Origin: Pirellulales bacterium
GTDB taxonomy: Bacteria; Planctomycetota; Planctomycetia; Pirellulales; JAEUIK01
NCBI GenBank assembly: GCA_019694435.1
Contig: JAIBBZ010000025.1
Span: forward strand, 1 to 64,000
Direction of reading: 5' to 3'
Length of the DNA: 64,000 bases
Shown: in pieces, positions 13,694 through 27,847 of the stretch
Numbering within the stretch: position 1 is the stretch's first letter
Layout of the letters: every line of letters begins with the position of its first letter
The notes under the pieces: generated by a model
The model's database searches: none
The model's input: only the letters and a program-made list of their open reading frames with translations
What the model was told of the DNA's origin: nothing
Translations under genes and position numbers: made by a program

Positions 13694-15688
13694 TCAGGTT
13701 TCGGCCTGTTCGTCGATCACCACGAGCACGGCGCCGGCGTCGACCTGCGCCTTGGCGGTAACGCGGACCTCGACCACCCGGCCGGCGGCGGGCGCCGTGA
13801 TGGGGTGGAGCATTTTCATCGACTCGATCACCAGCAATGTTTCACCACTGGCGACGAGCTGGTCCACGGCCACTTTCACCTCGGCCACCAGTCCCGGCAG
13901 GGGCGCCACGAGCGACCCGGCGATGACCTCTTCGCCCGGCTCGGGGTAGCGCGGCAGCTCGACCAGCTCGGTCGCGCCCAGCGGGCTATCGACGTACGAT
14001 ACCATGCCGACGCGGTGGACGGCGTAGGTGCGCTGGATGCCGTCGATTTCGAGGGTGACCTGCGTGGCCGTGCAGTGGCCCAGCCGAGGCGCCGGTAGCT
14101 CTTCGCCCGCGACCATCAGGCGCAACCGCCCGCGCCGGAACTCGTAGCCCACGACAATTTCGCCGGACTCGCCGCGATAGCGAGTTTCTTGCAGTTGCGA
14201 GGGGTTGTTGCGCCAGCCCGAGGGGATGCTGCCGAGGGTCGGCGCTGCGGCTCGGCGCTCGGCTTGTGCGGCCAGCGCGGCGGCCGCGGCGTGCAGGTGT
14301 TCGGTCCGGGCATCGGACAACGGGCGGCCCAATTCGGCCGGCGGATGACGCAGCAGGAAGTGGGTGTCGGTCTGCCCGGCGAGGAACTCGTTGTGCTGCA
14401 GCGTGCGCACGAGCAATTCGCGGTTGGTGCGCAGGCCGTGGAGTTGCGCGCGGGCTAGCACCGACGCGAGGCGGCGGGCGGCATCGGCGCGCGTGGGCGC
14501 GTGGACGATCACCTTGGCCAGCATCGAATCGTAAAACGGGCTGACCTCGGCACCGTCGGCCACGCCGGTTTCGACCCGCACGTCGGCAGCCGGCTCGATC
14601 TGGAATCGCTGCAGCCGTCCGGTGACCGGAAGGAAGATATTGCGCGGATCTTCGGCACAGAGCCGCACCTCGATCGCGTGGCCCTGGATCTGGGCGCCGG
14701 TGGCCTCGGGTGGGAGCGGTTCGCCGCGGGCGGCAAGAATCTGCAACCGCACCAGATCGAGCCCCGTGATCATTTCCGTCACGGGATGCTCGACCTGCAG
14801 CCGGGTGTTGACTTCGAGGAAGTAGAACTTGCCCTGGGGGGTGAGCAGGAACTCGACAGTGCCGGCGCCGACGTACTTGATTGCCCGGCCGGCCTGCACG
14901 GCGGCTTCGCCCATCGTGCGGCGCAGCGCCTCGTCGACCGCTGGCGAAGGCGATTCTTCGATGATCTTTTGATGGCGCCGCTGAATCGAGCACTCGCGTT
15001 CGAACAGCGAGATCACGTTGCCGTGCTGATCGCCGAAAATTTGAATTTCGACGTGACGCGACGATTCGACGTAGGGCTCGAGAAACACCGCGTCGTCGCC
15101 AAAGGCGTTCTTGGCCTCGAGCCGGGCGGCCTCGAGCGCCGCGGGGAAGTCTTCGGCGCGCGAGACGATCCGCATGCCGCGCCCACCGCCGCCGGCCGAG
15201 GCCTTGACGAGCAGGGGATAGCCGAGCTTTTCCGCCTCGGCGAGCAATTGCTGCGCCGAGCGCGCCCCGGCGTCGACGCTCCCCAGAATCGGTACGCCGG
15301 CGGCCTGCATCCGCCGCTTGGCCTCGATCTTCGAACCCATCGCCGCGATAGCCTCGGGCGAGGGACCGATGAAGATCAACCCCGCTTCGATCACGGCCCG
15401 GGCGAACTCGGCATTTTCGGCCAGGAAGCCGTAGCCGGGATGAATGGCGTCGGCCTCGCTCCGGCGAGCGGCATCAATCAGGGCGTCGACCCGCAGGTAC
15501 GATTCGGCCGGCGTCGAACCGCCCAGCGCGACGGCCTCGTCGGCCTCGGCCACGAACAGCGATCGGCGGTCGGGTTCGGAGAATACGGCCACGGTCGAGA
15601 TGCCCATCGCGCGGCACGTGCGCTGAATCCGGCGGGCAATCTCGCCGCGGTTTGCGATCAGCACTTTGTCGATGTGGGCACGGCTCAT
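13694..15688 (-). CDS. liuD: Acyl-CoA carboxylase alpha subunit (biotin carboxylase + BCCP; methylcrotonyl-/geranyl-CoA type)
   Basis: 664 residues. Order: biotin carboxylase N-domain ('VLIANRGEIARRI', residues 9-21), ATP-grasp core with the glycine loop 'KASAGGGGRGMRIV', and 'FLEVNTRLQVEHPVTE' containing the catalytic Glu, Asn and Arg residues. The biotin carboxylase C-domain follows, then a linker (BT) domain, then the biotinyl domain. The biotin attachment site is 'ESMKM' with Lys625, where most carboxylases have Ala before Met-Lys-Met. Size and domain order fit the alpha subunit of 3-methylcrotonyl-CoA or geranyl-CoA carboxylase. It starts 2 bp after the beta-subunit stop, so translation is coupled. 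The LiuC-like hydratase nearby argues for methylcrotonyl-CoA; AtuA leaves geranyl-CoA open. Confidence 0.9.
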   Translation of the reverse strand: MSRAHIDKVLIANRGEIARRIQRTCRAMGISTVAVFSEPDRRSLFVAEADEAVALGGSTPAESYLRVDALIDAARRSEADAIHPGYGFLAENAEFARAVIEAGLIFIGPSPEAIAAMGSKIEAKRRMQAAGVPILGSVDAGARSAQQLLAEAEKLGYPLLVKASAGGGGRGMRIVSRAEDFPAALEAARLEAKNAFGDDAVFLEPYVESSRHVEIQIFGDQHGNVISLFERECSIQRRHQKIIEESPSPAVDEALRRTMGEAAVQAGRAIKYVGAGTVEFLLTPQGKFYFLEVNTRLQVEHPVTEMITGLDLVRLQILAARGEPLPPEATGAQIQGHAIEVRLCAEDPRNIFLPVTGRLQRFQIEPAADVRVETGVADGAEVSPFYDSMLAKVIVHAPTRADAARRLASVLARAQLHGLRTNRELLVRTLQHNEFLAGQTDTHFLLRHPPAELGRPLSDARTEHLHAAAAALAAQAERRAAAPTLGSIPSGWRNNPSQLQETRYRGESGEIVVGYEFRRGRLRLMVAGEELPAPRLGHCTATQVTLEIDGIQRTYAVHRVGMVSYVDSPLGATELVELPRYPEPGEEVIAGSLVAPLPGLVAEVKVAVDQLVASGETLLVIESMKMLHPITAPAAGRVVEVRVTAKAQVDAGAVLVVIDEQAET

Positions 15689-15690
15689 GG

Positions 15691-17322
15691 CTACAGGCGA
15701 AAGACCCCGAAATTGCGCGTGCCCCGGACTTCGGCCGAATGGCAAGCCGACAAGGCCATGCCGAGCACCGTGCGGCTGTCGCGGGGATCGATGATGCCGT
15801 CGTCGTACAGCTTGGCGCTGTTGAACAAGGCCAGCGATTCGCTTTCGATCATCGCTTCGACAAAGGCCCGCTGCTGGGCGTCGGCCTCTTCGTCGAAGGG
15901 CTTGTTGGACGCCGCGGCGGCTGCCCGCGATACAAGCGACATGACGCCGGCCAACTGTTGGGGTCCCATCACGGCCGTCTTGCTGTTCGGCCAGACGAAC
16001 AGGAACCGCGGATTGTACGCCCGGCCGCACATGCCATAGTTTCCGGCGCCGTACGAAGCGCCGATCTGGAGCGTGATGTGCGGAACTTCGCTGTTCGAAA
16101 CAGCGTTGATCATCATGGCCCCGTGCTTGATGATCCCGCCTTGCTCGTAGCGCTTGCCGACCATGAAGCCAGTGACGTTCTGGATAAAGATCAGCGGCGT
16201 GTCATAACGGTTGGCCAATTGAATGAACTGCGCCGCCTTCTGCGACTCCTCGGAAAACAGAATGCCTTGCTGATTGGCGAGAATTCCGATCGGGAAACCG
16301 TGCAGCCGGGCCCAGCCGGTCAGCAGGCTCGTGCCGTACAGCGGCTTGAACTCGTCGAACTTCGAGCCATCGACGATGCGGGCGATGATTTCCCGCATGT
16401 CGACCGGTTGTTTCAGATCGGCCGGTGCCAGCCCGAGCAATTCTTCGGGGTCGTAAAGCGGTTCTTCAACGGGCGACTGGGGCGCGGCGCCCAATTTGCG
16501 CCAATTGAGATTGGCGACCGCCTTACGTCCTAATCGCAGACAGTCGAGCTCATCTTGCGCAAGGTCCTCGGCCAGGCCCGAGATGCGGGCATGTAGATCT
16601 GCGCCCCCAAGCTCCTCGTCGTCCGACTCTTCGCCCGTGGCCATCTTGACCAGCGGCGGGCCGCCGAGAAACACCTTGGCCTGACCTTTGACGAAGATGC
16701 CGTGATCGCACATCGCCGGGTTATACGCACCGCCGGCCGTCGAGTTGCCGAAGACCATCGCGATGGTCGGCACGCCCGAGGCGGAAAGCTGGGTGAGCGC
16801 GCGAAAGACGGCGCCCCCGGGTACAAAAATCTCCGACTGCGTCGGCAGATCGGCGCCGCCCGACTCGACCATGAAAATCAGCGGCAGCCGGTTGCGCTGG
16901 CAGATCTCCAGGCCGCGGAGCGATTTCTTGAGCGTGTAGGGATTGACCGAGCCGCCTTTGACCGTGGGATCGTTGGCCGAAAGCATGCACTCGACGCCGC
17001 AGACGGTGCCGATGCCGCCGACGCCCGAGGCGCCGACATGAAAGTTCGATCCGGCCGCCGCAAACGGCGACAGCTCGAGAAACGGCGAATCGCGGTCGAG
17101 CATCAGCTCGATCCGCTCGCGGGCCAGAAGCTTGCCACGGGCCTTGTGACGCGAAGAGTATTTCTCGCCGCCCCCGGCGCGGCCCATCGCGAGCAGCTTT
17201 TCCAGTTCGGCCAATTTGGCCTGCAGGCCGTCGCAGTTGGCCTGGTAGGGGGCCGAACCGGTGTCGAGCTTCGACTTGAGAACCTGCAAGGCCAACGCCG
17301 CAACCCTCGACGCAGCAGACAA
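15691..17322 (-). CDS. liuB: Acyl-CoA carboxylase beta subunit (carboxyltransferase; methylcrotonyl-/geranyl-CoA type)
   Basis: 543 residues containing the two crotonase-like halves of the carboxyltransferase. The first half carries 'GKLLARERIELMLDRDSPFL' and 'FGNSTAGGAYNPAMCD'; the second carries 'IGILANQQGILFSEESQKAA', 'QNVTGFMVGKRYEQGGIIKH' and 'GASYGAGNYGMCGRAYNPRF'. These segments are diagnostic for the MCCB/GCCB group rather than propionyl-CoA carboxylase. It transfers CO2 from biotin to the gamma carbon of the acyl-CoA. The best start is a TTG at 17322, with a GGGGGA about 12 nt upstream; this gives the short N-terminal lead normal for the family. First gene of the operon liuB-liuD-atuA, preceded by a promoter-like element. 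Confidence 0.9.
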   Translation of the reverse strand: MSAASRVAALALQVLKSKLDTGSAPYQANCDGLQAKLAELEKLLAMGRAGGGEKYSSRHKARGKLLARERIELMLDRDSPFLELSPFAAAGSNFHVGASGVGGIGTVCGVECMLSANDPTVKGGSVNPYTLKKSLRGLEICQRNRLPLIFMVESGGADLPTQSEIFVPGGAVFRALTQLSASGVPTIAMVFGNSTAGGAYNPAMCDHGIFVKGQAKVFLGGPPLVKMATGEESDDEELGGADLHARISGLAEDLAQDELDCLRLGRKAVANLNWRKLGAAPQSPVEEPLYDPEELLGLAPADLKQPVDMREIIARIVDGSKFDEFKPLYGTSLLTGWARLHGFPIGILANQQGILFSEESQKAAQFIQLANRYDTPLIFIQNVTGFMVGKRYEQGGIIKHGAMMINAVSNSEVPHITLQIGASYGAGNYGMCGRAYNPRFLFVWPNSKTAVMGPQQLAGVMSLVSRAAAAASNKPFDEEADAQQRAFVEAMIESESLALFNSAKLYDDGIIDPRDSRTVLGMALSACHSAEVRGTRNFGVFRL

Positions 17323-20863: not shown

Positions 20864-22039
20864 CTACGCCCAGGACGCCTCAAAGATGCGGTAGCGCTTG
20901 TATTTCTGCGCGCCGGTGCGCTCGATCAGCCGGTTGATCAGGTCGTTGTCCTCGAGCGTCCAGCCTAGCTCCGCGCCGGTGTACTTGAGTTGGTTCTTGC
21001 CGTAGTCGAGCGTGTCGAGAATCATCATCTCGGGCACGCCGCGGCGGCGAAAACCCTCGAGCACGCCCAGCACGCAGAGGCGGCCGGCCTTGATCTTCCG
21101 TTGATTCCACAGGAACCGCACGAGGTTGATCGGCAGTCCCCAATTGGTCAGCCGGCCGTTGAGCGGGCGGATCGCCTCGTTGATGTCGGGCAACGTGATC
21201 GTAATACCGACCGGTCGGCCTTCGACTTCGGCGATCTTGACCATCTCGGGCACGGCGATGAGCTTGAGCGATTTGCCGAGATGCTCGAATTCCACGTCGG
21301 TCATCTTCACGAAGCCCCAGGCGGTCGACCAGGCCTCGTTATAAAGCTGCTTGCAGCGGGCCATCTCGTTGTCGAAATCATTCATCCGAATGTTGCGTAC
21401 GGTCACGCCAAAGCGGGCAGTGATCTTCTGCGCCTTTTCACGCCAGGCCGCAACCATGTCGTGCGGATCTTCGAACCACCAGGCGAACGTGTCCTTGGCC
21501 TTCGACAATCCACACGCCTCGAGCAACGCTGCATAGTACGGACGATGGTGGTTCATCATTACCCGGGGCGGCGTCGAGAAGCCTTCGATGAGCAAGCCAC
21601 ACGGATAGTTGGTCGAGTAGTCGATGGGCCCCATGACTGCAGTGCGGCCGCGCGCTCGGAGCCAGTTGGTCGCCTGCTCGATGAGCGCACGCGCGACGTG
21701 CACGTCGTCGATGCACTCGAACATCCCAAAGCACCCCAAATTGGTGCCGTGCTGTTCGTTGTAGCGCGGGTCATCGCTCACCAGGATCCGGCCGACGGGC
21801 ACGCCCGCACGGCGGGCGAGAAAGATCTCGGCTTCGCCGTGCGCGTAAAACGGATGGTGTTTGCGCGAGATGAATTGAGAGACTTCGTATTTGAGCGGGG
21901 GTACCCATTGCGGGTCGTCGCGGTAGATCGCCCAAGGCAAATCGATGAAGGCGGCCCGATCGCGCCGCGTGCGGACCGGGAAGAGCTCGACCGGTGGCAT
22001 CCCGCCGCCGTTCGACCGTGGGTCCCTTGCAGAACTCAT
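20864..22039 (-). CDS. GNAT-fold N-acyltransferase resembling the bacterial ceramide synthase (bCerS) family
   Basis: 391 residues. The N-terminal half opens with 'ELFPVRTRRDRAAFIDLPWA' and 'YRDDPQWVPPL', a signature I know from the large GNAT-like family often misnamed dATP pyrophosphohydrolase. To my knowledge that family includes the Caulobacter ceramide synthase. The C-terminal third has the acyl-CoA-binding turn 'GFRRRGV' (about 310-316) and a mixed alpha/beta GNAT core. bCerS N-acylates the 3-ketosphinganine made by serine palmitoyltransferase, and an SPT-like gene is divergently encoded 503 bp away, which supports the idea. The ATG at 22039 has GGAG 8 nt upstream; the frame stays open further upstream, but codon use there is unlike the gene. 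A generic N-acetyltransferase remains possible. Confidence 0.65.
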   Translation of the reverse strand: MSSARDPRSNGGGMPPVELFPVRTRRDRAAFIDLPWAIYRDDPQWVPPLKYEVSQFISRKHHPFYAHGEAEIFLARRAGVPVGRILVSDDPRYNEQHGTNLGCFGMFECIDDVHVARALIEQATNWLRARGRTAVMGPIDYSTNYPCGLLIEGFSTPPRVMMNHHRPYYAALLEACGLSKAKDTFAWWFEDPHDMVAAWREKAQKITARFGVTVRNIRMNDFDNEMARCKQLYNEAWSTAWGFVKMTDVEFEHLGKSLKLIAVPEMVKIAEVEGRPVGITITLPDINEAIRPLNGRLTNWGLPINLVRFLWNQRKIKAGRLCVLGVLEGFRRRGVPEMMILDTLDYGKNQLKYTGAELGWTLEDNDLINRLIERTGAQKYKRYRIFEASWA

Positions 22040-22542
22040 GCTTGCCGCTCCGCCTGGGGTTGTTGACGGACCACCCGAGAGCGGGTCGAAGACGCGGATG
22101 GTCTCACGAGCGTCTTCGCACGGAATGGTCTGCAGCATCGGCATTCTATCCTTGAACTCGATTTGGAGTTGGGTGCAATTCCAACCGATGCGGTTTTCAG
22201 TAACGTCTTTTCTGTAGAGACCTTCGGTCATTGTTCTGGGGCGAATCATGGCGGGGCCCTGGGGGTCTGGTGGGGCAAATTTGCAATCCGCGCAAGCGGA
22301 AACGCGGAATTGCTCTCCACCACCTAGCGCCCATCGCCGTGCAGTCGTTACATCGACATTCATTGTGGCGCTTGCTTGCACTCGATCGACCGATTGCTGG
22401 CTGCGGCAAACGAAAAGACCGGTTCTGGCCCGGCTTGTAACAAACGGATCGGCCTTACGCCCTGCTGTCAGAGGCGAAACGAATCCCACCCGCCTCGCAT
22501 CCCAAAAAACGACGCAAATCTCTGACTGGAAGGCACTTGACC
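22040..22542. other. Divergent intergenic region between the bCerS-like and SPT-like genes
   Basis: 503 bp without a supported gene. The minus-strand frame of the GNAT-like gene stays open through most of it, but its codons are AT-richer and its translation carries no family similarity, so I read it as leader and promoter DNA. The half nearest the SPT-like gene has AT-rich patches. No hexamer pair is good enough to call a promoter. The region must hold the start signals of both divergent genes, which would allow joint regulation. Confidence 0.5.
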
Positions 22543-23844
22543 ATGATTACGATGAACCGCGAACTGACCGCGACTCCGGGCCTGGAGCTGAACGACGAGA
22601 CTTCGCTGGTCGACATCCTCCGCGCTCGCGACAGCGGCATGGACGTTCGGACCGCCGCGGCGTTCTTCAGTGCCGCTTTGGAAGAATATGAGTCTCGTGG
22701 CCATAACCTCTATCGCCGCATGCTGTTAGAGCCTTCGGACGCAGAAGCCCAGGTGCATTATCCGCGAGAGGAAGGCACTCGGCAGATGATCGTCCTGGCC
22801 TCGAACAACTACCTGGGCCTGGCCACGCATCCAAAGGTGATCGCTGCGGCACAGGCCGCCGCGGCCCAGTACGGTGTCGGCGCGGGCAGCTCGCCGCTCT
22901 TGGTCGGAACCTTCCCCGTGACCCGCGAGCTGGAGCGCAAGTTGGCCGAGTTCAAGGGCACCGAGGACGCCTGTGTCTTCTCGAGCGGCTTTGGCGCGAA
23001 CGTGGGCGTGATCTCGGCCTGCGTCGGCAAGAACGACGTCGTGATCCTCGATCGCCTGGCCCATGCGAGCATGGTGGACGGTGCCAAGCTGTCCGGGGCG
23101 CAGATCAAGGTCTTCAAGCACAACGATGCCGAGCACCTCGACCGGGTGTTGTCGCGCTGCCCGGGCACCGGGACCAAGCTGGTCGCGGTCGAAGGCATCT
23201 ACAGCATGGACGGCGACATTGCCCCGCTCGACAAGCTCGTGGCGGTTTGCCGCCGGCATGGCGCGATGCTGCTGGTCGATGAGGCCCACTCGACGGGTGT
23301 GCTCGGCCCCGACGGTCGCGGCGCGGCGGCCCACTTCGGGCTGGAAGGCCAAATCGATCTGCACATCGGCACGCTCAGCAAGGCGATTGGCGCCTGTGGC
23401 GGCTTCGTGGCCGGCCGGGCCGATCTGATTGCTTACCTCCGCTACTTCGCCCGCTCGGCGATGTTCTCGACGGCCCCCAGCCCCATGGTGTTGGCCGCAG
23501 CGAGTGCCGCGCTCGACGTGATCCGCGAGGAGCCGGAACGCTGCGAAAAACTGTGGGACAACTGCACCTTCATGTGGAACGAACTGAAGCGGATGGGTTT
23601 CAAGCTCAACGACGCACCCAGCCCGATCATTCCGGTGATCGTGGGGACCATGCATGGGCTGCGGCAAATGACCTTGGAACTACATCGCAACAATATCTGC
23701 GTCAACTCGGTACCGTTTCCCGCGGTACCGCACGGCAGCGAGCGGCTGCGAATCAGCCTCACGGCGAACCATACCCGTGAGCAACTGGTCGAGGCGCTGC
23801 GATGCATCGAACAAGCCGGCCGCAACGCGGGCGTGATTGCCTGA
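22543..23844 (+). CDS. Alpha-oxoamine synthase, serine palmitoyltransferase-like
   Basis: 433 residues of the PLP fold type I alpha-oxoamine synthase family. Substrate-loop segment 'ASNNYLGLATHPKV', then 'EGIYSMDGDIAPL', the PLP-binding 'DEAHSTGVLG' (D246, H249), and the Schiff-base Lys280 in 'GTLSKAIGACGG'. These enzymes condense an amino acid with an acyl-CoA and release CO2. The wording of the 'SMDGDIAPL' and 'FGLEGQID' segments is closer to serine palmitoyltransferase than to BioF as I recall those families, but BioF or Kbl activity cannot be excluded by eye. A 45-residue N-terminal lead is longer than in BioF. The ATG at 22543 has GGAAGG 9 nt upstream. Neighbours are a bCerS-like and a ceramidase-like gene. 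Confidence 0.75.
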   Translation: MITMNRELTATPGLELNDETSLVDILRARDSGMDVRTAAAFFSAALEEYESRGHNLYRRMLLEPSDAEAQVHYPREEGTRQMIVLASNNYLGLATHPKVIAAAQAAAAQYGVGAGSSPLLVGTFPVTRELERKLAEFKGTEDACVFSSGFGANVGVISACVGKNDVVILDRLAHASMVDGAKLSGAQIKVFKHNDAEHLDRVLSRCPGTGTKLVAVEGIYSMDGDIAPLDKLVAVCRRHGAMLLVDEAHSTGVLGPDGRGAAAHFGLEGQIDLHIGTLSKAIGACGGFVAGRADLIAYLRYFARSAMFSTAPSPMVLAAASAALDVIREEPERCEKLWDNCTFMWNELKRMGFKLNDAPSPIIPVIVGTMHGLRQMTLELHRNNICVNSVPFPAVPHGSERLRISLTANHTREQLVEALRCIEQAGRNAGVIA

Positions 23845-23895
23845 GTGGGCCGAGCATGTGGGATTGAGTGCGTACCTTCATGGGAGGGTGGGATG

Positions 23896-23956
23896 AGTCA
23901 GCGAGCCTCATCGGCTCCGGGACGACGGTTCCGGATGCCGATGGGGCTCAATGACT
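23896..23956 (+). terminator. Long hairpin between the SPT-like and ceramidase-like genes
   Basis: A nearly perfect inverted repeat: AGTCA (23896-23900), a 13-base arm GAGCCTCATCGGC (23903-23915), TCCGG (23916-23920), a 10-base loop, CCGGA (23931-23935), a one-base bulge, GCCGATGGGGCTC (23937-23949) and TGACT (23952-23956). Only one wobble pair occurs in the main arm. No T-tract follows, so a classical intrinsic terminator is not certain. It could also be an mRNA stabiliser or attenuator that sets different levels for the two genes. Confidence 0.6.
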
Positions 23957-24023
23957 GCGCCTGGCGCAGATTTCGTGTCCGCCGGTTTCACCTGCGGCCG
24001 GCGCCCGCCTAGACTGGGCGGTC

Positions 24024-25415
24024 ATGCGAGTTGCACTCTGGCTCTGTGTGCCGTTCCTGTTGCTGGTCGAGACCTCGCGCGCCGCGGAGACGCCGCCCGA
24101 CTTTTGGCTGGCGACCTTTTCCGTCGACGTGACGATTCCTCTGGGCCATCCGTGCATGGGTGGCGGGATTTCGCCAGCGGTCCGCATTGACGATCCGTTG
24201 CTGGCCCGGGGTGTGGTGCTCGGCGGGCGCGGTCTCGAGCCGCTGGTGATCTGCGGAGTCGATTGGTGCGAGATACGCAACGAGGCGTACGAACATTGGC
24301 GCGCGGCGCTCGCTGATGCCGCAGGCACGACCCCCCTGCGCGTCCTGGTGTCATGCCTGCACCAGCACGATGCCCCGGTCGTCGATCTCGTGGCGGAGCA
24401 ATTGCTCAAGGAACACGGATTGCAAGGGAGCGTTTGCGATATCGAGTTTCACGAACAGACGGTCAAGCGGGTGGCAACGGAACTCAAGGTCGCGCTCGAG
24501 CGTCGGCGCCGAGTGACCCATTACGGCACCGGGCAGGCGGAAGTCAGCGAGGTCGCGTCGAACCGGCGCTACCACGACTCGCAAGGCAACCTGCGGTTCG
24601 ATCGGACCAGCGCCTCGCGCGATCCCGAGGCGCATGCGGGCGAGCCGGGCACCGTCGATCCCTGGCTCAAGACGGTTTCGTTCTGGGATGGTGACTTGTG
24701 TCTCGCCGCGATCAGTCATTTTGCCACGCACCCGATGAGCTATTACGGCAAAGGCGGCGTGTCGAGCGACTTTGTCGGCCTTGCCCGCCGGCGGCGCCAG
24801 GAGGACATCCCCGAGACGTTTCGCATCTATCTCAGCGGATGCAGCGGCAACGTAACGGCCGGCAAATACAACGACGGATCGCCTGAGAATCGCCCGCGGC
24901 TCGCCGAGCGAATCTACCGGGCCATGGTTGCGGCAGATGAAGCCACGCGCCGGCAGCCGCTTGAGCGCATCGCGTTCCGCGCGGCAAAGTTGCGGCTGGC
25001 GCCGCGCGCATCGGCGGGCTTCAGCCCAGCCGAGCTCGAAGCGCGCCTGCGACCGGAAGCGCGGTCCTTCGATCAATGCCTGGCGGCCATGGGGCTCAGT
25101 TGGCGCCGCCGCTGCGAGGCCGGCTTGAACATCGATGTCCCTGTTATCGATCTGGGCCAGGCGGCGCTGCTGCTATTGCCGGGCGAGTCGTATGTCGAAT
25201 ATCAGCTGTACGCGCAGCAGGCTTGCCCCGATAAGTTTGTGGTCGCCATCGGGTACGGCGAATCGGCAACGGGCTATATCCCGACCGAGCGTGCCTGGGA
25301 GGAGCACGATACGAACTTGCACGATTGGTGCTGGGTGGCTCCGGGGGCCGAATCCCTCATGCGCCGCGCGATCGACGAGGCGTTGCAATCGCCCGCGGGA
25401 CCGCCGGGCCGTTAG
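24024..25415 (+). CDS. Exported neutral/alkaline ceramidase-like protein
   Basis: 463 residues with a signal peptide (about 1-21, 'WLCVPFLLLVETSRAAE'). The N-terminal domain of the neutral/alkaline non-lysosomal ceramidase family is indicated by 'SVDVTIPLGHPCMGGGIS', 'LVSCLHQHDAP' (the metal-binding H-x-H), 'ISHFATHPMSYYG' followed by 'VSSDFVG', and 'YLSGCSGNVTAGKYND' at the place of the catalytic Ser loop. The usual C-terminal beta-sandwich is short or missing, as in other bacterial one-domain members. Ceramidases split ceramide into sphingoid base and fatty acid, but planctomycetes carry many divergent relatives with unknown substrates. It follows the SPT-like gene after 179 bp that contain a strong hairpin. 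Its end overlaps the next, convergent gene by 4 bp. Confidence 0.75.
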   Translation: MRVALWLCVPFLLLVETSRAAETPPDFWLATFSVDVTIPLGHPCMGGGISPAVRIDDPLLARGVVLGGRGLEPLVICGVDWCEIRNEAYEHWRAALADAAGTTPLRVLVSCLHQHDAPVVDLVAEQLLKEHGLQGSVCDIEFHEQTVKRVATELKVALERRRRVTHYGTGQAEVSEVASNRRYHDSQGNLRFDRTSASRDPEAHAGEPGTVDPWLKTVSFWDGDLCLAAISHFATHPMSYYGKGGVSSDFVGLARRRRQEDIPETFRIYLSGCSGNVTAGKYNDGSPENRPRLAERIYRAMVAADEATRRQPLERIAFRAAKLRLAPRASAGFSPAELEARLRPEARSFDQCLAAMGLSWRRRCEAGLNIDVPVIDLGQAALLLLPGESYVEYQLYAQQACPDKFVVAIGYGESATGYIPTERAWEEHDTNLHDWCWVAPGAESLMRRAIDEALQSPAGPPGR

Positions 25416-27847
25416 CCGCGCCGGCGGGCCTGCTTCCGCCGTACGAACAAGCCCGCGCCGGCGACACCGATCGCGGCCAGGACACACGAGCTCGGTTCGG
25501 GCACCACGCCAAACTGAATGACCAGTTCTCCGCCGTGGGGCAGAAACACGCCGCCGAAATCGAGGCCGTTGTGCACCGGCAGAAAGACGCCGTCGAGCGT
25601 GGCCCAGGCAATCGTACCGCGATCGAAGATGCGCAGCTCGGTGCCCGGCACGAGGCCATCGTCCGAAACGGTCCCGAGGATCTGGTCGATCAGCATGCGC
25701 AGCGAAAGCGTGGCCGGGTTCGATAACTCGAGCACCGTATCGCCCAGATAGCCGAGTTGCGTGCCTTCGGCCATCATCAGCCCGGTCAGCTCCAGGCCCT
25801 GTTGGCGGATGTAGGCGTAACGGGCATCGCTCGAGAGGGCACCGGCCGTGCGGCTTTGCAGGCTGTGCTGCGAGAGGATGTAGTCGGTCCAGCCGGCGGT
25901 GTCATGCGCCACGCGCATCGCCAGCCATTGCGAATCATTCGACAACTTGGTGATGTACAGATGTGCCGGGCCGATCGGTCCCGTCTCGATTACGCTCAGA
26001 AACAGCCCGTCGGTAGCGCCGGTCATGGTGCCGCGCATGCGATAGGTCTGCTGGAAATTGTCGAACGTGTCGTGCATCCAGAGGTTGCCGGCCGAAAACG
26101 TCATCGACTGCGAGGCGATCAGGTTCTCAATGACCTGGGCCCCCTGATACTCCCAGCGCACCTGCTTGTAGTCGGGCGTGTTGGTAAGGACCGTGCGAAC
26201 TCCGCGGCCAACCAGGTTGAAGGCATAGGTGTGTGCCGCGTTGCCGTCCATACGGTCGGCCACGACGTAATAGTCTTCGTGAGGCGCCGCGACGCTGCGC
26301 GTCACCGCGACTCCGCCATAGTTCATTTGCAGCGTGGAGAAATCGCTGACGCCGTGGAACGTGCCAAACTCGGTGCTGTCGAGCCGGTTGGTGCGCACGA
26401 AGTCCTCCGGACGCATTCTCCGCCCGAAGTCGGTGCCGCCCAGCGTTCCGTCGACCAGCACGACGTTGTGCCAGGTCGGGTCGCGAGGACCAAAATTCGG
26501 CGGCGAATTGGTCAGGTCGTCGCGGTCGTAGCCGGGCGCCACGAGAATGTACTTACCCTGCGAGGCGACGAGAATCTCGCCCGTATCGTTGTGGCTGTGG
26601 AACGCGGGCACGTAGGCGTCGATGGGTGGATCGTCGCTGTAAAGATGAAACGCGGGGCTATCGACGCCGGGCGACAGCAGCAAATAGTCGCTCGTGGCGC
26701 CCCAGTCCTCGCGAAACACCGAAACCGCACTTTGCCCTGGTGCGAAATAGGTCGGCGAACGCGTCGGCGCTTGCGGAGCAACGGCGCTGAAATCGGTCAA
26801 GGCAAAGTCGGTCGTGTTCGTCCAGTCGTTGTTCTCGATCGCCGTCTGGTCGAACGAATAGGGGCTGGGGCCGACCTCGGACGTGTTCCAGAGAATATTG
26901 GCCGCGGTCGTCGGATCGCTGTCCTGCGAAAAAAAGTGCAACGCGATCGGCTCGTTCAAACCGTTCGACACGTTCGGCACCGTGCCATCGGGCAGCCGCA
27001 GCCCCAGCGACATGTCGACGTACGGGCGCAGGTTCTCGTATAGATCGACGCCTGAGCCCTGCTCGTAGGCCCGCAGAAAGTAACCCCAGTGCCGGAGCGT
27101 GTAGTTGAGGTAGTGTCCCTGGCTGTCGGTGAACCAGCCGTCATCCGTGGTGCTGTAGTCGAAGTGGCCCTGCAAGTCGGCCAGGCCCGTGTCGAGTTGG
27201 TCCTGGTCGCGCAGTAGCACCCCGGCCAGGGCGCGAGTCGCCCCGATCTTGGCGCGGGCGTTGCTATAGGTCTGATTGCCATAGTCGAGGCTTTGCGAGA
27301 GCGACAGGAGCCGGGCCTCGATCGTGTCCCGCGTGGCTTGCGGTAACTGGACGTTCGACGCGCCGCGGATGAAGTCGTAGGCGGCCAGGTAGCTGGTGAG
27401 AACCTCGGGGCGGGTGATGAACGTGCCACCGGGAACGTCGGCCAGCGACAAGGCACCGACGGCCTTGTTCAAGTCGGCCACATTGCCGGTCATGGCAAAG
27501 CGCAAGCCTGCGGCCTGCGCGATACTGGCGTCGTTCGTGGCGACGCCGAAATCGACCGGCACGGCGCCGCTGGTGTTCTGGCTGGCGCGGCTGTTGGCGC
27601 TGTTACGCCAACTGAGCTGTTGCGAGTTGACCGGCGTAACCCACTGCGCCTGAAGATTGGCCAGGTCGTCGCCTAGGATCAGCGAAGTGGTGGGCATGTT
27701 CGGCGGCAACACGCCGGTCGTCGAGCCGATCGACATTTGCGCCGCCGCGGGAGCAGGATCGATCAGCAGTGCGAGGCCGGCGCACGCCACAAACCATGCG
27801 AACCGCTTTCCTACAGCGCGCGCGGCGGACCTTCGATTGCCCAACAT
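25412..27847 (-). CDS. Heparinase II/III-like exported protein with PEP-CTERM sorting signal
   Basis: 811 residues. There is an N-terminal signal ('FAWFVACAGLALLIDPAPAA'), an alpha/alpha-toroid-like part to about residue 330, and a beta-sandwich part with 'FREDWGATSDYLLLSPG', 'HSHNDTGEILVASQGKYIL' and 'WHNVVLVDGT', the pattern of the heparinase II/III domain of polysaccharide lyases. The C-terminus ends 'VPEPSSCVLAAIGVAGAGLF' plus an Arg/Lys cluster, a PEP-CTERM signal that directs exosortase processing and surface attachment. It probably cleaves an acidic or sulfated exopolysaccharide; the substrate is unknown. Weak Shine-Dalgarno. The 3' end overlaps the ceramidase-like gene by 4 bp (convergent). 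Confidence 0.8.
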   Translation of the reverse strand: MLGNRRSAARAVGKRFAWFVACAGLALLIDPAPAAAQMSIGSTTGVLPPNMPTTSLILGDDLANLQAQWVTPVNSQQLSWRNSANSRASQNTSGAVPVDFGVATNDASIAQAAGLRFAMTGNVADLNKAVGALSLADVPGGTFITRPEVLTSYLAAYDFIRGASNVQLPQATRDTIEARLLSLSQSLDYGNQTYSNARAKIGATRALAGVLLRDQDQLDTGLADLQGHFDYSTTDDGWFTDSQGHYLNYTLRHWGYFLRAYEQGSGVDLYENLRPYVDMSLGLRLPDGTVPNVSNGLNEPIALHFFSQDSDPTTAANILWNTSEVGPSPYSFDQTAIENNDWTNTTDFALTDFSAVAPQAPTRSPTYFAPGQSAVSVFREDWGATSDYLLLSPGVDSPAFHLYSDDPPIDAYVPAFHSHNDTGEILVASQGKYILVAPGYDRDDLTNSPPNFGPRDPTWHNVVLVDGTLGGTDFGRRMRPEDFVRTNRLDSTEFGTFHGVSDFSTLQMNYGGVAVTRSVAAPHEDYYVVADRMDGNAAHTYAFNLVGRGVRTVLTNTPDYKQVRWEYQGAQVIENLIASQSMTFSAGNLWMHDTFDNFQQTYRMRGTMTGATDGLFLSVIETGPIGPAHLYITKLSNDSQWLAMRVAHDTAGWTDYILSQHSLQSRTAGALSSDARYAYIRQQGLELTGLMMAEGTQLGYLGDTVLELSNPATLSLRMLIDQILGTVSDDGLVPGTELRIFDRGTIAWATLDGVFLPVHNGLDFGGVFLPHGGELVIQFGVVPEPSSCVLAAIGVAGAGLFVRRKQARRRG

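Follow-up and report, generated by a model that had tools for sequence, protein, structure and literature searches.

What is made by an alpha-oxoamine synthase and a putative ceramide synthase that are encoded head to head in a planctomycete, and does the ceramidase-like gene next to them take part? The question is raised by a 64,000-nucleotide stretch of a Pirellulales bacterium (assembly GCA_019694435.1, contig JAIBBZ010000025.1, positions 1 to 64,000; the whole stretch is called the window below), in which a preliminary description had proposed a three-gene sphingolipid locus. Detailed knowledge of ceramide synthesis in bacteria comes from few proteobacteria and Bacteroidota. We favour, with a probability of about 0.65, the reading that the two divergent genes, which we call GNATw and AOSw, are a predicted sphingolipid-type (ceramide-like) biosynthesis unit and the second, partly duplicated branch of a pathway whose CerR-like reductase is encoded on another contig of the genome, C5, the ceramidase-like gene lying outside it.

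GNATw belongs to the bacterial ceramide synthase family

Scans of the Pfam and NCBIfam libraries gave no match for GNATw. A tblastn search of a plasmid collection matched 44 records, annotated as GNAT family N-acetyltransferase, dATP pyrophosphohydrolase, hypothetical protein or YghO. GNATw is 36.2% identical to E. coli YghO over 376 amino acids (E = 4.9e-79), and 36.6-41.3% identical over 373-396 amino acids to cluster-encoded members from Roseomonas, Diaphorobacter, Rubrobacter and Streptomyces. According to the available sections of two papers, yghO (ECD_02850) is the counterpart of Caulobacter CC_1154 (PMC9386255), and CC_1154 is named CerS (PMC11324152). A related arrangement occurs in a metagenome-assembled genome (MAG) titled Deltaproteobacteria (L254), where a serine palmitoyltransferase (SPT) sharing 50% identity with the solved enzyme of Sphingobacterium is followed by a GNAT 40% identical to GNATw and then by a CerR-like gene.

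The AlphaFold2 model of GNATw, built from 31 sequences, is a tandem GNAT with a predicted local distance difference test score (pLDDT) of 93.3 and a predicted template modelling score (pTM) of 0.91. Foldseek and VIA-align both rank tandem GNATs first among PDB folds, the best VIA-align match being MAB_4324 (7q3a; Z 25.6, root-mean-square deviation (rmsd) 3.2, 304 residues), followed by mycothiol synthase (2c27; Z 22.0, rmsd 3.2, 281 residues) and the N-myristoyltransferases (Z ~16-17, rmsd ~5, ~290 residues). The GNATw clade has 99-100% support in the family trees. By homology and predicted fold, GNATw is thus a full-length member of the CerS/bCerS (bacterial ceramide synthase; CC_1154/YghO) family, in line with the GNAT-fold protein of bCerS similarity first described here.

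The divergent pair is conserved and has a paralogous locus

We searched 256 genomes of the order and 392 of the phylum for the AOSw clade (E at most 1e-110). The order sample holds eight copies in seven genomes, and the phylum sample holds one, in the window's own genome. GNATw and AOSw stand head to head in 7/7 of the genomes with the clade (the window, L041, L042, L043, L045, L159 and L160; L042 and L159 are on short contigs), so that the pairing of GNAT and oxoamine synthase genes noticed in the window holds throughout the clade. Seven of the eight copies have this arrangement, and the eighth lies on contig C5 of the window genome beside a second GNAT gene, GNAT5, and a CerR-like epimerase-family gene. 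On C5 the oxoamine synthase (AOS5) and GNAT5 are co-oriented, and the CerR-like gene is divergent from both; AOS5 is 69% identical to AOSw and GNAT5 38% identical to GNATw. The C5 trio is complete and paralogous to the window pair. Since C5 holds both a paralogous pair and a CerR-like reductase, the window pair is best described as a further arm, duplicated in part, of the same pathway.

A lipid context is also supported for GNATw and AOSw alike by the gene content of a Verrucomicrobia locus (L253). Its genes include those of a GNAT that shares 47% identity with GNATw, of an oxoamine synthase sister to the AOSw clade (88/80), of a fatty acid hydroxylase and of two enzymes of the CDP-alcohol phosphotransferase type.

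GNAT5 and GNATw are fused or in tandem in relatives

GNATw occurs in 51 of the 256 order genomes, at 52 places. With a contig-cut copy (G482) this gives 53 classed genes, of which 16 form one open reading frame (ORF) with GNAT5 upstream and 12 are in tandem with GNAT5. The other 25 comprise seven beside AOSw, one beside a fusion of fatty acyl-AMP ligase (FAAL), acyl carrier protein (ACP) and oxoamine synthase, and 17 beside none of these, some of them near contig ends. A CerR-like gene lies within 4.5 kb of 8 of the 28 fused or tandem units, many of whose contigs are short. Among 70 named loci, which overlap the same genomes as the order sample, 60 GNATw genes divide into 21 fused, 17 tandem, 2 beside AOSw and 20 other. 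GNATw is carried by a cultured relative, Bythopirellula polymerisocia Pla144 (L213). Full-length GNATw (at least 51% identity) is present in 15 of 40 relative genomes, a fragment in G015 being left out of the count, and all 15 also hold a second, less similar member of the family.

When 20 fused proteins are aligned, both modules are seen to be complete, with a variable linker between them. Support is good for the GNATw clade as well as for the GNAT5 clade; their grouping as sisters is not rejected (p 0.367), which does not establish it. Neither subfamily is obviously dead, because both keep the family-invariant columns. AlphaFold2 gave only a fair model of one fused protein (pLDDT 74.1, pTM 0.49), from which the packing of the modules cannot be read.

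The fusions and tandems suggest a two-module ceramide synthase. We tentatively extend this to the Pirellulales at large, as a possible though doubtful scheme in which GNAT5 and GNATw, separate proteins in the window genome and a single chain in relatives, would work on one product. They would do so as partners that need each other, or each would attach a different acyl chain (one to N and one to O, for instance); in the window genome each would have acquired an oxoamine synthase of its own.

Two further arrangements were seen in the GNAT family. At L208:3669-7188 a GNAT5-type, a GNATw-type and another GNAT5-type gene stand in a row, with a CerR-like gene upstream. A third planctomycete clade (L021, L025, L052, L054; four rows, support 100/100) was found in the sample only in the window's own family.

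AOSw is an SPT-like oxoamine synthase that the trees place outside the known SPTs

AOSw is a PF00155 member (Pfam scan, E 1.2e-60) and carries the pyridoxal 5'-phosphate (PLP) lysine and the catalytic His and Arg of alpha-oxoamine synthases, the lysine being Lys280, as first reported, when counted from the ATG at 22543. The solved structures nearest to it include SPT 3a2b and the Thermus oxoamine synthase 7poa. Reference sequences of SPT, Thermus, Kbl and BioF type are all alike in their identity to AOSw (36-42%). In the second of two oxoamine synthase trees, made without 16 planctomycete BioF-type rows of the first, the AOSw clade has eight rows and support of 100/100.

The preliminary description had called this enzyme an SPT partly from the string SMDGDIAPL. 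The string is present, and it is not SPT wording: it is identical in Thermus 7poa, while Sphingomonas SPT reads SMLGDIAPL and E. coli BioF SMDGDSAPL, and we discarded it as an SPT marker. The class of the enzyme stands; as an SPT it falls below all SPT cut-offs and outside the SPTs in the trees, and joining them is not rejected by the approximately unbiased (AU) test (p 0.107). Nor do the trees group it firmly with BioF or Kbl. Groupings with SPT, BioF, Kbl or FAAL-type enzymes alone are each compatible with the data (p 0.105-0.192), and the sole rejection among five tests is that of SPT, FAAL-type and AOSw together (p 0.017). AOSw is described here as SPT-like, its place among the subgroups being left unsettled by the trees.

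Proposed function and competing explanations

The substrates, the order of steps and the ceramide product in the following scheme are our proposal, set beside the homology, fold, pairing, C5 locus and GNAT fusions observed above. AOSw would join an amino acid, most likely serine, to a long-chain acyl thioester to give a 3-keto long-chain base, GNATw would place a second acyl chain on the amino group of this base, and the CerR-like reductase from C5, encoded beside GNAT5 and AOS5, would complete the pathway by reducing the ketone. In Caulobacter, according to PMC11087976, Spt and bCerS are cytoplasmic and CerR is periplasmic.

Several results weigh against a ceramide unit. AOSw misses the cut-offs of all three NCBIfam SPT models (370.8, 346.6 and 316.5 bits against 640, 500 and 670); its top NCBIfam model is bioF (TIGR00858; 417.1 bits, under the cut-off of 426.45); and both trees place it outside the known-SPT group (98/91 in the first, 94/95 in the second). 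None of the seven genomes showed a CerR-like gene close to its window-type pair, and all 28 fused or tandem GNAT5-GNATw cases belong to one family of the order (f17), which is not the window's. The GNATw copy in G034 carries an internal TGA. Lastly, one 99% complete genome of the window's family (G005) has BioA and BioB, and AOSw is the sole oxoamine synthase found there, so AOSw might in that genome also serve biotin synthesis.

The position of AOSw outside the known-SPT group would also fit a pair that makes a ceramide analogue. AOSw would then take an amino acid other than serine, such as alanine, glycine or cysteate, and GNATw would acylate the resulting base, to give a 1-deoxyceramide or sulfonolipid-like product. 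A different product would account for the duplication, as AOS5, 69% identical, has its own GNAT and CerR-like gene, and PMC11334938 reports that Spt can use alanine and itself puts lysine forward. We nevertheless hold this to be unlikely: nothing in AOSw points positively to an amino acid other than serine, and the serine next to the PLP lysine, which we had dropped as an SPT marker, is uninformative either way because planctomycete BioFs carry Ser too.

That AOSw is a BioF (biotin) or Kbl (threonine breakdown) enzyme which merely adjoins a GNAT gene appears improbable, although bioF is its best model, the AU test does not reject its grouping with BioF (p 0.157) or with Kbl (p 0.105), and G005 lacks another oxoamine synthase for its BioA and BioB. 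A separate gene exceeds the bioF cut-off in six of the seven AOSw-clade genomes, namely the window genome (a gene on contig C6, 453.6 bits) and five of the six others, and all eight AOSw-clade copies fall under it (387-417.5 bits). The string [IV]RPP[ST]V is found in 27/27 BioF-group rows and in 0/25 of the other rows with letters at that place, AOSw included (three truncated rows were left out). One genome, G426, has AOSw and no BioB over the cut-off, and the head-to-head order with a bCerS-family gene in all seven genomes likewise speaks against such an enzyme.

The ceramidase-like gene is probably a chance neighbour

The label neutral-ceramidase-like finds remote support: PF04734 is matched by 4 of 16 members of the protein's family (best E 9.6e-9), and the solved neutral ceramidase 2zws reaches a profile E of 0.054. 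The window protein itself matches no Pfam family, even at E up to 10. Its N-terminus resembles a signal peptide, as judged by eye. The family is a large planctomycete one, with members in 28 of 40 relative genomes and up to 14 copies per genome.

The gene adjoins the pair in none of the six other AOSw-clade genomes (0/6), so the trio is not kept in these genomes and we take the gene to be a chance neighbour; its place beside the pair is probably a coincidence, outside the pathway. Synteny rules out a conserved three-gene unit, and a single pathway in which the exported ceramidase degrades or remodels the product of the pair, for which adjacency in the window and the remote PF04734 relationship speak, is very improbable given this absence and given that the closest relatives (54-61% identical; G005, G006, G034) lie on contigs other than the pair's.

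Features of the locus and neighbouring genes

The three ORFs lie where they had been placed before (20864-22489 on the minus strand, 22537/22543-23844 and 24024-25415 on the plus strand). The GNATw frame is open to 22489, and we put the start of its core near the ATG at 22000, because homologues align from that point; AOSw has an alternative TTG start at 22537.

Table 1. Coordinates of the paired genes, the region between them and the adjoining ceramidase-like gene, in window positions.
Feature	Coordinates	Strand	Basis
GNATw, bCerS-family tandem-GNAT acyltransferase (predicted), 378 aa	20864..22000	-	homology, fold, clade support
Shared divergent upstream region of GNATw/AOSw	22001..22542	no strand	head-to-head order kept in 7/7 genomes
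AOSw, alpha-oxoamine synthase, SPT-like, 433 aa	22543..23844	+	PF00155, nearest solved structures, PLP Lys/His/Arg
Remote neutral-ceramidase (PF04734)-type protein	24024..25415	+	family-level profile matches; judged chance neighbour

Elsewhere in the window are a protein that resembles heparinase II/III and has a PEP-CTERM tail (25412-27847) and an alpha-type subunit of a biotin-dependent carboxylase (13694-16030). On contig C3 of the window genome (L111:8433-12062), and in many relatives, acyl-AMP ligase, acyl carrier protein and oxoamine synthase are fused in a protein of ~1,200 amino acids, which recalls the Rhodobacterial AasR-AcpR-Spt as a single chain. Many relatives have large open frames that include an oxoamine synthase, and in G033 (L047) the fusion adjoins GNATw. 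An ORF of ~100 amino acids beside GNATw was considered as an ACP and rejected, its length fitting and its sequence, by eye, not. In five loci without AOSw (L046, L047, L048, L050, L051) a conserved protein of ~500 amino acids, of outer-membrane type by eye, is encoded near GNATw; we take it to be BBP7-like and do not regard it as functionally connected.

Comparison with known systems

A planctomycete sphingolipid locus is as such not new, because Spt-like proteins of 138 Planctomycetota MAGs have been published (PMC11334938). In the available text of that paper, the oxoamine synthases of Black Sea Planctomycetota MAGs are Spt-like by tree position, and bCerS and CerR homologues lie near many of the clade; two loci per genome and fused bCerS modules are not described in that text. 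Our search of open-licence PMC literature returned no report of a fused or doubled bCerS or of a GNATw/AOSw locus. If the proposal is true, the planctomycete pathway relies on oxoamine synthases of a lineage distinct from the known SPTs and on a ceramide synthase that is duplicated and, in relatives, physically fused.

The GNATw fold has a parallel in mycothiol synthase MshD and MAB_4324, which also have two GNAT halves per chain and differ in identity (11%) and in substrates. Closer in gene content are the trios on plasmids of Streptomyces sp. NBC_01001 and Rubrobacter radiotolerans, whose GNATs are 40-41% identical to GNATw and directly adjoin an oxoamine synthase; their oxoamine synthases, however, group with the known SPTs, and the order is oxoamine synthase, GNAT, epimerase. 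The E. coli locus combines genes for an oxoamine synthase, an ACP, an epimerase and a FAAL with yghO. According to PMC9386255, acyl-AcpR is the substrate preferred by the SPT of E. coli B. The planctomycete genome resembles the Rhodobacterial set of ceramide genes (aasR, acpR, spt, cerR and cerS, as in Caulobacter and E. coli B) in having a bCerS GNAT adjoining an oxoamine synthase, and a CerR-like epimerase at C5. The window locus differs from it in its oxoamine synthase outside the known SPTs, in that no CerR-like gene was found there, in its head-to-head pair and in being the second such locus in its genome.

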